Source: an uncultured Bacteroidota bacterium
Lineage (GTDB): Bacteria; Bacteroidota; Bacteroidia; AKYH767-A; JABDAW01
Assembly (NCBI GenBank): GCA_903844645.1
Contig: CAIMUP010000039.1
Span: 1-64,000 of the forward strand
DNA: 64,000 nucleotides
Direction of reading: 5' to 3'
A program made the position numbers and the translations under genes. The first letter of the stretch is position 1, and the number at the start of each line of letters is the position of its first letter. The notes beneath the pieces are model-generated. The model was given only the letters and a program-made list of their open reading frames with translations. It searched no databases and was not told the DNA's origin. Shown piece after piece: positions 6,075 through 61,310 of this stretch.

Positions 6075-6178
6075 AACTAAAGTTTCATATTCTCCAAAAC
6101 AAATGTTAAAATTAATACCAAAAATTTCGGGCTGCCACCTTTCGATGAATCATGGGTGATTCCTTAAATTACAAAAAA

Positions 6179-6278
6179 GCGTCCTCGCATGGAATCCAAG
6201 CGTCCTCGGAAGGAATCCAAGCGTCCTCGGAAGGAATCCAAGCGTCCTCGGAAGGAATCCAAGGAAGGATTCGAGGGG
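6179..6278. repeat. 21-bp tandem array A2 (4 units plus tail)
   Basis: Units begin at 6179, 6200, 6221 and 6242 with the words GCGTCCTCG and GGAATCCAA. The array ends in an inverted copy of its last half unit (GAATCC ... GGATTC), making a small hairpin at 6256-6274. It sits between the 3' end of the NHL/Ig-like gene and the promoter of the M36 gene, about 105 bp upstream of the -7 box. Confidence 0.88.
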
Positions 6279-13205: not shown

Positions 13206-13436
13206 CACTCGTTGTCCACAGATAACCATTCGTTGTCCAAAAACGACCACTCGTTCCGCCAAAACATCCACTCGTTCTAATTGGATGACCACTCGTTCCA
13301 CCAAAACGACCACTCGCTGTATTTAGATGCCCACTCGTCCTAAAAATAAGACCACTCATTCTAAAAATACGACCACTCGTTATACCCAGATTAACACCCG
13401 TTCCAATAAAACGAACACCCTCCCCCACAAAACAAC
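13206..13436. repeat. 21-bp tandem array A3 (11 units)
   Basis: Units start at 13206 and every 21 bp to 13416, all in register. A constant half GACCACTCGTT alternates with a divergent half (for example CCGCCAAAACAT, CTAATTGGAT, CTAAAAATAA). Weaker in-register traces continue to about 13490. It lies between the 3' end of rplN and the 5' end of the unknown gene at 12227-13138. Confidence 0.9.
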
Positions 13437-20970: not shown

Positions 20971-21201
20971 GTTCCCAGAAACAGCATTTGCGTTTTCAGA
21001 AAAGGCATTTGAGTTTTCAGAAAAAGCATTTGAGTTTTCAGAAAAGGCATTTGAGTTTTCAGAAAAAGCATTTAGGTTTTCAGAAAAGGCATTTGAGTTT
21101 TCAGAAAAAGCATTTAGGTTTTCAGAAAAAGCATTTAGGTTTTCAGAAAAGGCATTTGAGTTTTCAGAAAAAGCATTTAGGTTTTCAAGGTTTTGGAGGT
21201 C
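20971..21201. repeat. 21-bp tandem array A4 (10 units plus one divergent)
   Basis: Units begin at 20971 and every 21 bp to 21181. The core TTTTCAGAAAA is itself a short palindrome, followed by GGCATTTGAG or AGCATTTAGG; the two endings alternate irregularly. The array lies between two divergent genes, about 165 bp upstream of the histidine kinase -7 box. Confidence 0.95.
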
Positions 21202-24419: not shown

Positions 24420-24447
24420 GAAATCGGTTTGGAATGGATTTTCTATA

Positions 24448-24594
24448 CTCCAAAGTATATCATTTGAACTCCAAAGTATATCATTTGAACTTCAAAGTAT
24501 ATCATTTGAACTTCAAAGTATATCATTTGAACTTCAAAGTATATCATTTGAACTTCAAAGTATATCATTTGAACTTCAAAGTATATACTTTGAA
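24448..24594. repeat. 21-bp tandem array A5 (7 units), dyad-symmetric
   Basis: Units start at 24448, 24469 and so on to 24574. Each contains TTCAAA and TTTGAA, so two dyad axes occur per unit, about 10.5 bp apart. The last unit is a perfect 20-bp palindrome, TTCAAAGTATATACTTTGAA, at 24575-24594. The array lies between divergent genes, 29 bp from one -7 box and about 107 bp from the other. Confidence 0.95.
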
Positions 24595-24701
24595 GTCCAA
24601 AAAAGAGGCGTTTTCAAAACCAAAGCTTTTTATCTTCTGGAAAAAACCATCTTTTCGGGGTTTCAAAACTTTGATTGAGGAATTTGAATCCGAGAGATTG
24701 G

Positions 24702-26864: not shown

Positions 26865-27158
26865 TCAAAGGGAAGCCGTCCCTCTTCTAAGGGACGACGT
26901 ATCTTTGAAGAGGGAAGCCGTATCTTTGAAGAGGGACGACATATCTTTGAAGAGGGACGGCTTCCCTTTGAAGAGGGACGACATATCTTTGAAGAGGGAC
27001 GGCTTCCCTTTGAAGAGGGACGGCTTCCCTTTGAAGAGGGACGACGTATCTTTGAAGAGGGACGGCTTCCCTTTGAAGAGGGACGGCTTCCCTTTGCAGA
27101 GGGACGGCTTCCCTTTGAAGAGGGACGACGTATCTTTGAAGAGGGAAGCCGTATCTTT
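26865..27158. repeat. 21-bp tandem array A6 (14 units)
   Basis: Units begin at 26865 and every 21 bp to 27138, the first two being degenerate. All contain GAAGAGGGA; the rest combines a few alternatives (CGACGTATCTTT, AGCCGTATCTTT, CGACATATCTTT, CGGCTTCCCTTT) in mixed order. The array is flanked by direct repeats and lies 76 bp upstream of the -7 box of the TPR gene. Confidence 0.95.
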
Positions 27159-27188
27159 GACCATAACACCCGTCAGGTGATTCTGTCC
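27159..27188. repeat. Direct repeat flanking array A6, right copy
   Basis: This copy of the left flank reads GACCATAACACCCGTCAGGT, then GA, then TTCTGTCC. It begins immediately at the end of the last 21-bp unit. Confidence 0.8.
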
Positions 27189-27233: not shown

Positions 27234-27241
27234 TACTTTTG
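27234..27241 (+). promoter_or_regulatory. -7 box of the poly-G gene
   Basis: TACTTTTG is an exact consensus match, 33 bp before the ATG at 27274. It supports 27274 as the real start codon rather than the GTG at 27399. Confidence 0.65.
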
Positions 27242-27273: not shown

Positions 27274-27345
27274 ATGAGCAAAAAGCCAGCAATTACGAAA
27301 CCATCCTCTCCTAATAAACGCGGGGGGGGGGGGGGGGGAGTTTAA
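27274..27345 (+). other. Out-of-frame start region with a G17 tract (phase-variation candidate)
   Basis: The ATG at 27274 opens MSKKPAITKPSSPNKR, then runs into the G17 tract at 27322-27338 and stops at 27343-27345. With 15 or 18 G the reading would pass through ...GGGSLNNPKSFFDLKTSFGF directly into the downstream frame at 27339, adding a sensible N-terminus and completing the first membrane helix. With 17 G the gene is off or reduced. A sequencing or assembly error in the tract is possible. Confidence 0.75.
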
Positions 27346-27398
27346 ATAACCCCAAATCTTTCTTTGACCTTAAAACTTCTTTTGGGTTTATCATTGCT

Positions 27399-29339
27399 GT
27401 GTTCGCCTTCTTGCTTTATGCGCAGAGTATTACTTATTATTATACAATTGACGATTCATTTTCTTTCAAAGAAAGTAAGCTAACCAAGCAAGGAATAAGT
27501 GGCATCCCAATGATTCTTAAATCTGATTATTGGTATGGTCGAGAGGATTATTTTCGGGGTCCCATTTATAGACCTTTCCCTCTAATTTTGTTTGCGACAG
27601 AGTGGCAATTTTTTCCTGACAATCCAATGGTTTATCATCTGGTAAATGTCTTATTTTATTCCCTTTTATGTCTTTTACTTTATTCCGTGCTTTGTAAATT
27701 ATTTGAGGAAACGAACCTCTTATTTCCCTTCGTTTGTACGATGCTTTACGCAGCCCATCCGATACATACCGAAGTGGTGGACAGCATCAAAAGTGCAGAT
27801 GAAATTTTAGCTTTCCTTTTTGCCCTTTTATCCCTATTTTATTTCCTTAAATCTATTGAGAAAAATTCAATACTCTATTTACTTTTCGGAGCTGTTTTTT
27901 ATTTCATTTCTTTGTTGTCAAAAGAAACGGCTATTGCTTTTTTTATTGTCATTCCATTAATGCTTTATGTATTCATCAAAGCAGATTTTAAAAGGATTCT
28001 TTTAATAACAAGTATTCTTTTTTGTACCACTATGGGTATGCTGTTAATACGATATGAAGTTCTGAAATCAGTTCCTGATAATGGCATACAACTAATGAAT
28101 AATTCACTTGTCGGAGCACCGGATTTTATCAGTCGGAAGATGACTGCATTTTATGTTTTATTAAGATATATTTTGTTGTTGTTATTTCCTCATCCTTTAT
28201 CTTACAATTATACCTTTAATCAAATACCAATATGCCACTTAAATAACCTACCCGTTCTATTCGGAATCGTTCTTTGTTTAGCCATATTTATATATTCTAT
28301 TATTAATATCAGAAAGAAAAGCATGATAGCATTTTCCATTTTATTTTTCCTTCTCACTATCATTCCTGTTTCTAATATTTTTATGCTGATAGGATCACCA
28401 ATGGCAGAACGGTTTTTGTTTATGCCATCGCTTGGTTTTAGTATGTTGACGACCCTATTCCTGATAAAAATAACGACTGCCAAAGCGGAAGAAAACAGAA
28501 TATTATCCTTCAAGGAATTTATCCAAGGGAATTCTAAAATAGTTATCATAGTCTCTATTTTATTATGTTTATATTCTATCAAAACTATTTCAAGAAATAC
28601 GGATTGGAAAGACGATGTTTCATTGGTAGGGCATGATGTTGAGATTGTACCAAATTGCGCAAGTGCTCATTTTAGTTGGGGGCATATCTTAGTAGATACT
28701 CTTTTTTTGGAAGAAAAGGATTCCGTTCAAAAAAATAAAATCCTTGATCAGGGGATTGATGAATTTAAAAAGGCGGTAGCTATTTTTAATAATTATACCG
28801 ATGCTTACAACTGGTTAGCCAAGGCATATATTCTAAAAAAGGATTACCAAAATGCCATTTCAGTTTATAGAATTTTACTTCATATAGATGGAGATAAGGA
28901 TACTGCTGATTTAAATTCATTAGCCGTTGCTTATTACGATTTTGGTCTTCATTGTAATCAAACAAATCAATATGAAAAATCTCTAAACACCTTTGATTCG
29001 GCAATAAAATATAAACCTAATTTTTCAGAATCTTATAACAATAAAGGAGTGGCTTATTTGGAATTAGGAAAGAATACTGAAGCTATTACAGAATTTGAAA
29101 AGGCTATCAAATTAGATGAGAAAAATCATACAGCATATTCCAACATTGGCTGTGCCTACACCAATCTTAAACAATATGAAATGGCATTACAGTATTTGAA
29201 TAAATCTATTTCTTTAGATTCTTCTGACCATTATCCGGTTTATATAAAAGGAGTTACTTATCAATTAATGGGTGATACCTTAAAAGCCAAAGAATACTTT
29301 GAAAAAGCAAACCAGAAAAGTGGTGGGCAGGGGCGGTAG
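27399..29339 (+). CDS. Membrane GT-C-like protein with C-terminal TPR repeats (start behind poly-G tract)
   Basis: The 646 residues called from GTG at 27399 are probably the remainder of a ~688-residue protein beginning at 27274. The N-terminal ~390 residues form about ten membrane helices in the style of dolichyl-phosphate-mannose or TMTC-type glycosyltransferases, with an acidic pair after helix 1 (YYTIDDSF) and later RGPIYRPFPLILFATEW. The C-terminal ~220 residues hold about five TPR motifs (AIAVYRILL; YNNKGVAYLELGKNTEAI; AYSNIGCAYTNLKQYEMAL). TMTC-like proteins mannosylate exported proteins; this role is inferred. The start is controlled by a G17 tract. A terminator lies at 29347-29381, before the convergent E1 gene. 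Confidence 0.88.
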   Translation: MFAFLLYAQSITYYYTIDDSFSFKESKLTKQGISGIPMILKSDYWYGREDYFRGPIYRPFPLILFATEWQFFPDNPMVYHLVNVLFYSLLCLLLYSVLCKLFEETNLLFPFVCTMLYAAHPIHTEVVDSIKSADEILAFLFALLSLFYFLKSIEKNSILYLLFGAVFYFISLLSKETAIAFFIVIPLMLYVFIKADFKRILLITSILFCTTMGMLLIRYEVLKSVPDNGIQLMNNSLVGAPDFISRKMTAFYVLLRYILLLLFPHPLSYNYTFNQIPICHLNNLPVLFGIVLCLAIFIYSIINIRKKSMIAFSILFFLLTIIPVSNIFMLIGSPMAERFLFMPSLGFSMLTTLFLIKITTAKAEENRILSFKEFIQGNSKIVIIVSILLCLYSIKTISRNTDWKDDVSLVGHDVEIVPNCASAHFSWGHILVDTLFLEEKDSVQKNKILDQGIDEFKKAVAIFNNYTDAYNWLAKAYILKKDYQNAISVYRILLHIDGDKDTADLNSLAVAYYDFGLHCNQTNQYEKSLNTFDSAIKYKPNFSESYNNKGVAYLELGKNTEAITEFEKAIKLDEKNHTAYSNIGCAYTNLKQYEMALQYLNKSISLDSSDHYPVYIKGVTYQLMGDTLKAKEYFEKANQKSGGQGR

Positions 29340-33596: not shown

Positions 33597-33953
33597 GGTT
33601 GAGTTTTGGATTATGTTCGTCGAGTTTTGGAATATGTTCGTCGTAACTTGAATTTCATTCGTCGTAACTTCAATTTCATTCGTCGTAACTTCAATTTCAT
33701 TCGTCGTAACTTGAATTTCATTCGTCGTAACTTGAATTTCACTCGTCGAGTTTTGGATTTCACTCGTCGAGTTTTGGGTTTTCATCGTCGAGTTTTGGAT
33801 TTCATTGGTCGAGTTTTGGATTTCACTCGTCGAGTTTTGGGTTTTCATCGTCGAGTTTTGGATTTCATTGGTCGAGTTTTGGATTTCACTCGTCGAGTTT
33901 TGGATTTCATTGGTCGAGTTTTGGGAAATACACGTTGAGTTTGGGTTTGGGGA
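33597..33953. repeat. 21-bp tandem array A7 (17 units)
   Basis: Units start at 33597 and every 21 bp to 33933. Three forms mix: GTCGTAACTTGAATTTCATT, GTCGAGTTTTGGATTTCACT and GTCGAGTTTTGGGTTTTCAT. It lies between hairpin R3 and dispersed repeat D1. Open frames of seven-residue repeats run through both strands without any gene signature. Confidence 0.95.
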
Positions 33954-37036: not shown

Positions 37037-37179
37037 AATTATTTGTCGCCACACCGATAAGTTGGGGTGGCGGCAAATAATTATTTCTCGCCACACCGAT
37101 AAGTCAGGGTGGCGACAAATAATTATTTCTCGCCACACCGATAAGTCAGGGTGGCGGCAAATAATTATTTCTCGCCACC
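37037..37179. repeat. 42-bp (2 x 21) dyad-symmetric array A8
   Basis: Units start at 37037, 37079, 37121 and 37163 (last one partial). Each 42-bp unit is two 21-bp halves in opposite orientation (13 of 17 aligned bases match when the second half is reverse-complemented). Dyad centres therefore fall every 21 bp: one at the unit centre around CGCCACA...GGGTGGCG, one between units at AAATAATTATTT. It sits between divergent genes. Confidence 0.92.
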
Positions 37180-40554: not shown

Positions 40555-40659
40555 CGGTAGTTTTTCGTCTCAAAAACCGATTTCCCCGTTGTGGAAGGCG
40601 GAATTGGGCTTGGAATTTGCGTACATTACCTGACTAAAACAAAAGTTTAAGCCTACAAA

Positions 40660-40785
40660 TGTACGCTAATTGTCAGGGCATGTACGCTAATTGTCAGGGC
40701 ATGTACGCAAATTGTCAGGGCATGTACGCAAATTGTCAGGACATGTACGCAAATTGGCAAGGCATGTACGCTAATGGTGAATAAA
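40660..40785. repeat. 21-bp tandem array A9 (6 units)
   Basis: Units start at 40660 and every 21 bp to 40765, each with TGTACGCTAATTGTCAGGGC or a close variant; the last unit is degenerate. An out-of-register GCGTACATTACCTGAC at 40619 is a related partial. The array lies 50 bp upstream of the next -7 box. Confidence 0.92.
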
Positions 40786-46603: not shown

Positions 46604-46792
46604 TAGTAAGGATGTGCACATCCTAAGTAACTATGTGACCATCCTAAGTAACTATGTGACCATCTTAAGTAACTATGTGACCATCGTAAGTAACTATGTG
46701 ACCATCGTAAGTAACTATGTGACCATCGTAAGTAACTATGTGAACATCCTAAGTAACTATGTGCACATCCTAAGTAACTATGTAATGATAGG
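46604..46792. repeat. 21-bp tandem array A10 (9 units)
   Basis: Units start at 46604 and every 21 bp to 46772. The half AAGTAACTATGTG is constant and ACCATCCT varies slightly (ATCGT, ATCTT, GAACATCCT, GCACATCCT). It contains the imperfect dyad GTAAC.TAT.GTGAC. The last unit runs into the hairpin at 46791. Confidence 0.94.
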
Positions 46793-50275: not shown

Positions 50276-50520
50276 AAATCCTCCGTGAAGGATTACAAAT
50301 CCTCCGTGGAGGATTGGAAATCCTCCATCGTGGCGCAGCTGTTCTCCGTTGTGGCGGAGCTATTCTCAATTGTGGTGCAGCTGTTCTCAATTGTGGCGGA
50401 GCTATTCTCAATTGTGGCGCAGCTGTTCTCAATTGTGGCGCAGTTATTCTCAATTGTGGCGCAGCTGTTCTCAATTGTGGCGTAGCAATTCCCAGTTGTG
50501 GCGTAGCAATTCCCAGTTGA
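50276..50520. repeat. 21-bp tandem array A11 (12 units) with a sequence switch
   Basis: Units start at 50276, 50297, 50318 and so on to 50507. The first two are AAATCCTCCGTGGAGGATT-like. From 50339 they become CTGTTCTCAATTGTGGCGCA-like. The unit at 50318 is a chimera: its first half is of the first kind and its second half of the second kind, and the 21-bp register is unbroken. Palindromes CAATTG and CAGCTG alternate with centres 10-11 bp apart. Confidence 0.93.
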
Positions 50521-56663: not shown

Positions 56664-57304
56664 ATTCCTTTGGTATGAGAACTCATTTTAATGGTATTGA
56701 AACGCCTTCTAATGGTATGAAAACTCCTTTTAATGGTATGAAAACTCCTTCTAATGGTATTGAAACGCCTTCTAATGGTATGAGAACTCATTTTAATGGT
56801 ATGAGAACTCATTTTAATGGTATGAAAACTCATTTTAATGGTATTGAAACTCCTTCTAATGGTATGAAAACTCCTTCTAATGGTATGAAAACTCCTTCCA
56901 ATGGTATTGTAAACCGAAGTTTTGGTATTGTAACTCTTAGCTCCAATACCGAAACTCTTAACTGCAATACCGAAGTTGCGAACTCCAATACTGAAACTGC
57001 GAACTCCAATACTGAAGTTGCAAACTGCAATACCGAAACTCTTAACTCCAATACCAAAACTGCAAACTCCAATACTGAAGTTGCAAACTGCAATACCGAA
57101 ACTCTTAACTCCAATACCAAAACTGCAAACTCCAATACCGAAGTTGCAAACTCCAATACCGAAGTTGCAAACTCCAATACTAAAGTTGCAAACTCCAATA
57201 CTAAAGTTGCAAACTCCAATACCGAAGTTCTGAACTCTACTACCGAAGTTCTGAACTCCAATACCGAAGTTCTGAAATCTACTACTTAAATTCATTTTTA
57301 TACT

Positions 57305-61125: not shown

Positions 61126-61293
61126 AAGTGCCCGAATCGCATTTGGAAGTGCCCGAATCGCATTTGTAACCACCCGAATCACATTTGTAAGTGCCCAAAT
61201 CGCATTTGCAACCACCCAAACCGCATTTGCAACCACCCAAATCGCATTTGTAAGTGCCCGAATCACATTTGTAAGTACCCGAATCACATTAGT
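61126..61293. repeat. 21-bp tandem array A13 (8 units)
   Basis: Units start at 61126 and every 21 bp to 61273. Two alternative first halves (AAGTGCCCGAATC, AACCACCCAAATC) combine with the shared second half GCATTTGT or ACATTTGT. A C11 tract (61295-61305) follows at the next register position. Confidence 0.94.
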
Positions 61294-61310
61294 ACCCCCC
61301 CCCCCAATAA

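Follow-up and report, generated by a model that had tools for sequence, protein, structure and literature searches.

A G17 tract at the start of a TMTC-like glycosyltransferase-family gene as a probable phase-variable contingency locus in an uncultured Bacteroidota bacterium

The G17 tract and the reading frames around it

The DNA analysed here (the window) comprises 64,000 nt, positions 1–64,000 of the forward strand of contig CAIMUP010000039.1 in assembly GCA_903844645.1, and originates from an uncultured Bacteroidota bacterium (Bacteroidia; AKYH767-A; JABDAW01). On its plus strand, a −7 promoter element, TACTTTTG (27234–27241), is followed by a start codon with the cytoplasmic leader MSKKPAITKPSSPNKR (27274–27321), a tract of 17 G (27322–27338) and the body of a predicted TMTC-like GT-C/TPR membrane protein (27339–29339). 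The frame opened by ATG 27274 encodes the leader, runs into the G17 tract and is closed by the TAA at 27343–27345, exactly as an earlier note on this DNA had read it. The long frame (SLNNPKSFFDLKTSFGFIIAVFAFLLYAQ...) spans 673 open codons between 27318 and its stop codon (29337–29339), and 666 codons plus the stop lie past the tract with no internal stop; the earliest ATG, GTG or TTG in this frame is the GTG at 27399, which falls within the first transmembrane helix (27360–27434, helix 8–32 of the model). At the assembled tract length, which is 2 mod 3, ATG 27274 and the long ORF are in different frames and the gene is OFF. By frame arithmetic, ATG 27274 shares the long frame whenever the number of G can be divided by 3, and the helix is joined to the ATG only with the tract in such a register; the earlier proposal that 15 or 18 G would join the ATG to the long ORF and the first helix therefore holds, as it does for every multiple of three.

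The position of the start codon was assessed through the 21 TMTC-like GT-C/TPR paralogues of this genome. The sequence at 27234–27241 fits the Bacteroidota −7 element TAnnTTTG, and such an element is found 38–41 nt upstream of the ATG in 11 of the 21 paralogues, both tract-bearing genes included (−40 here), so that the exact −7 box reported in the earlier note turns out to have a family-typical spacing as well. Alignment of the paralogue starts displayed a short cytoplasmic leader, often MSKK-like, preceding the first helix, with homologous leaders such as MSKKPAIIKPKTV and MSKKQPIIKPSSSNKR, and 19 of the 21 genes begin with a plain in-frame ATG without any tract. Because of the shared promoter position and the aligned starts, ATG 27274 is taken as the real family start, and the G tract therefore interrupts a coding frame; by frame arithmetic and the paralogue starts, its length decides the register of a family-supported start codon with the long ORF.

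A tract of this length is far above chance. Under order-3 statistics computed from the window without the G17 tract, the expected numbers of runs of at least 17 G or C in the window are ~8 × 10−8 and ~4 × 10−6. The second-longest G/C run in the window is 11, and the window is AT-rich, yet its A/T runs reach only 9. Pattern searches across the genome (3.84 Mb, 143 contigs) identified six G/C runs of at least 11 against ~0.2 expected from composition, and two A/T runs of at least 11 against ~8 expected, and so the excess of long runs in the genome is G/C-specific.

The promoter is also preceded by a 21-bp minisatellite array (26890–27160), one of more than a dozen arrays in the window, which lie mostly outside recognisable genes (1–286, 6177–6263, 13206–13381, 20976–21187, 24447–24601, 26890–27160, 33601–33924, 37037–37178, 40659–40775, 46605–46783, 50276–50519, 56671–57271 and 61126–61294). 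Their period is nearly always 21 bp (or 42/63) with unrelated unit sequences, and 21 bp corresponds to two turns of DNA. An array of the 21-bp type with a different sequence is located just upstream of the second tract gene as well.

The predicted glycosyltransferase and its paralogues

The body past the tract was compared with the TMTC motif list (DD, YRP, KE(T/Q) and ERxxY; PMC7801869) through the paralogue alignment. The DD motif of the first outer loop (M1, 27450–27455) is invariant in the 21 paralogues, and YRP (M2, 27567–27575), KET (M4, 27921–27929) and the ER of an ERxxY-like motif (M7, 28407–28412, here AERFLFMP) were located as well; the ERxxY reads ERFLF, and the RxD motif is not exact, reading SADE. 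A DUF1736 segment (PF08409, 28116–28235) matched its profile at the curated cut-off of 27, a borderline score that was reached with the frame neighbours included and was 24.8 bits in one search; most paralogues are clearly over this cut-off. The PF13231 (PMT_2) match of the tract gene is under its own cut-off, and TPR matches cover the C-terminal region (28707–29318). The tract gene keeps 51 of the 55 family-invariant columns (93%), which is inside the range of the intact members and slightly lower than most paralogues.

A fold search with the full-length protein returned TPR structures only among the matches listed, and a sequence profile against the PDB was likewise TPR-dominated; because TPR dominated the full-protein fold search, the membrane domain was modelled alone (pLDDT 73, pTM 0.81). 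The best 25 PDB matches of this model are all GT-C-type enzymes or subunits, i.e. STT3, PglB, Pmt, Dpy19, ArnT and PIG-U, with a best E of 7 × 10−5 and a modest TM of 0.4–0.5, which supports the GT-C fold class of the model rather than a specificity. Taken together, motifs, profile matches and model support an intact predicted GT-C/TPR glycosyltransferase, and since the catalytic motifs and the predicted fold are intact, a decayed pseudogene is argued against. The protein resembles the eukaryotic O-mannosyltransferases TMTC1–4 (PF08409, GT-C/PMT clan; PMC7801869) in its membrane GT-C domain, DUF1736, C-terminal TPRs and the DD, YRP, KE(T) and ERxxY-like motifs, but differs from them in being bacterial and multi-copy, in barely reaching the PF08409 cut-off and in reading SADE for RxD.

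The other 20 paralogues share 35–50% identity, and only two of the 21 genes carry a tract, the G17 gene and a G11 gene on another contig (C82:3965), whose tract is likewise 2 mod 3 and OFF as assembled. Common to both are the −7 box, the leader (MSKKQPIIKPSSSNKR in the C82 gene), the tract flanks (AAACGC-G(n)-AGTTTAAATAACCCC) and the first helix. Over this 5′ cassette the two loci are 86% identical at the DNA level, and their bodies share ~49% protein identity over the aligned part; another C82 paralogue of the same tandem group shares this promoter and leader start but lacks the tract. The recurrence of these flanks at a second locus, around a tract of another length, speaks against a purely technical artefact, and the difference between G17 and G11 means that the DNA length has changed since the two loci diverged. 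Tracts were absent at the paralogue starts of the two same-genus genomes checked, and the tract is therefore young or lineage-specific. The gene family itself is expanded at the genus level, with 21 copies here (G000) versus 13 and 18 in two genomes of the same genus (G001 and G002) and 0–7 in other genera of the order, and several copies are arranged in tandem.

Recurrence of the tract layout before export signals

The same genome holds a G14 tract lying in frame between an ATG and a signal peptide (L202:2140–4377, C104), in a gene whose 745-residue product carries a T9SS sorting domain; this gene is a second candidate switch. Of 29 distinct tracts of at least 11 in this genome and its relatives, ten coincide with a gene start (12% at control positions, p 0.001). 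Six of the 29 precede a hydrophobic segment there (control 2%, p 2 × 10−5), in a test that was designed post hoc, with three of the six cases from this genome and all lengths taken from assembly consensus. An earlier, overly permissive form of the N-terminal enrichment test, with 48% in the control, gave way to this stricter one.

L150, L155 and L167, all out of frame, are examples of this layout, which was also observed in other Bacteroidia at L218, in frame, and at L221 and L228, both out of frame. Two congeneric species carry homologous genes for an exported protein (L156/L166), with an in-frame G11 in one species and an out-of-frame G13 in the other. This recurrence supports the reading of the layout as a pattern of putative contingency loci. 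A class-wide scan for ATGA, 5 to 35 nt and G11 yielded matches in 31 of 295 genomes, several of them at contig ends, while ~18 genomes matched the backwards control, and it backs the layout only weakly.

Other G runs were also recorded. At L064 (C25:11270, G9) and L076 (C91:1258, G8) the tracts sit where two overlapping frames meet in genes for large, repetitive and probably surface-exposed products, and these are candidate frame switches. At L085, L062 and L078, terminator-like hairpins have runs of G9–G13 as their 3′ arm, and these runs look expanded; one of these hairpins lies directly past a 5S rRNA-like sequence. The G runs on C137, C17 and C101, at terminator-like or intergenic sites, were not counted as switches, and neither was the run at 61295–61305 (C11 on the plus strand, G11 on the minus strand), which is located beyond a MATE-type transporter gene, between its 3′ end and a 21-bp array.

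Phase variation and its alternatives

In our view, the G17 tract probably represents a simple-sequence contingency locus, which would subject one member of a glycosyltransferase family to slipped-strand phase variation. Replication slippage would make the tract longer or shorter by one or a few G; at lengths that are multiples of three, translation from ATG 27274 would pass through a Gly stretch of the leader into the first helix and produce the full TMTC-like GT-C/TPR membrane glycosyltransferase (ON), and at other lengths it would end shortly past the tract (OFF). The G17 and G11 members would switch independently, altering a subset of the transferred sugars or acceptor proteins. We infer variable tract lengths in cells, expression that switches along with them and, as the output, a glycan of the envelope or of exported proteins; with ~20 other paralogues present, one switching member may affect a portion of the glycan or protein pattern rather than all glycosylation. 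Of the phase-variable surface glycosylation put forward in the earlier note, the switch is thus backed by the tract, the start codon, the intact GT-C/TPR body and the recurring layout, and surface glycosylation as its output is suggested at the level of the family.

An assembly or consensus error would offer another account, in which the true tract is in frame (e.g. 18), the gene is always on and the G run encodes a Gly linker. The available sequence is a draft genome in 143 contigs, probably short-read, in which 17-base homopolymers are hard to call and the consensus at the tract may be wrong by one or two bases, and one or two bases suffice to set the state. However, the same flanks at the second locus confirm the tract, and errors of equal remainder would be needed at both loci; a pure G run is moreover poor for a fixed linker, whose synonymous third positions are expected to drift, and 19 paralogues manage without one. 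We therefore regard this account as unlikely. The OFF state of both tract genes as assembled is compatible with loss of function as well, i.e. with two redundant paralogues whose frame was broken by tract expansion and which, as incipient pseudogenes, are no longer used, and such a course could be afforded with ~19 intact paralogues left and would agree with the slightly lower conservation of the tract gene at the invariant columns (93%). But the 666 codons without a stop, the retention of every catalytic motif and a promoter still at the family position speak against it, and the frame is broken solely at the most slippage-prone site, leaving this course distinctly unlikely in our judgement.

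Long homopolymers can also induce slippage in transcription and translation, and a constitutive low expression through slippage of RNA polymerase or the ribosome on the G run would make DNA switching unnecessary. The shared remainder of 17 and 11 would suit this explanation, but the different lengths at the two loci indicate a change at the DNA level since divergence, and we hold it to be very improbable.

Switching through a contingency locus, the reading that we prefer, follows a known mechanism, here in an unusual lineage and an interesting gene family. Translational phase variation of contingency genes by poly-G/poly-C tracts is described in Campylobacter, Helicobacter and Neisseria (PMC6321876, PMC2823697, PMC3786947), in agreement with the general premise of the earlier note that homopolymer tracts near starts act as on/off switches. 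Like those systems, the present one has a G tract in the start of an ORF, a length that sets the frame, surface-related gene products, and several loci per genome with lengths differing between loci; unlike them, it has a rather long tract (17), a Bacteroidota host and TAnnTTTG promoters, the gene concerned belongs to a large TMTC-like family, and its tract lengths are assembly consensus values. Within the same phylum, Bacteroides phase variation of capsule and SusC/D genes by invertases (review PMC11868660) likewise turns surface-related genes ON and OFF stochastically, but by inversion of promoters or genes through recombinases, in contrast to homopolymer slippage in a coding frame. No report of poly-G phase variation in Bacteroidota was found in the literature searched, which included few subscription papers.

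The best-described examples of homopolymer phase variation come from host-adapted pathogens; for Bacteroidota, the described cases encountered in the literature searched are inversions driven by recombinases. If the present reading is true, a poly-G contingency locus would extend slippage switching to a major environmental phylum, Bacteroidota, and genes with the ATG-tract-export-signal layout in relatives would mark a set that probably varies under phage or grazer pressure. A wider proposal, to which we give little credence at present, is that the genus-expanded TMTC-like family comprises protein glycan transferases, perhaps including those of Bacteroidota O-glycosylation, and that those of its genes carrying a movable promoter-leader-G-tract cassette go ON and OFF independently, varying a glycoprotein surface beside poly-G switched T9SS exports. 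According to a 2025 review, neither the transferase nor the ligase that serves protein O-glycosylation in Bacteroidota has yet been discovered, and a search for homologues of the O-mannosylation machinery is proposed (PMC12871550); the TMTC-like family bears on this missing transferase/ligase and is a candidate, and no more than a candidate, for the O-glycosylation transferase of Bacteroidota.
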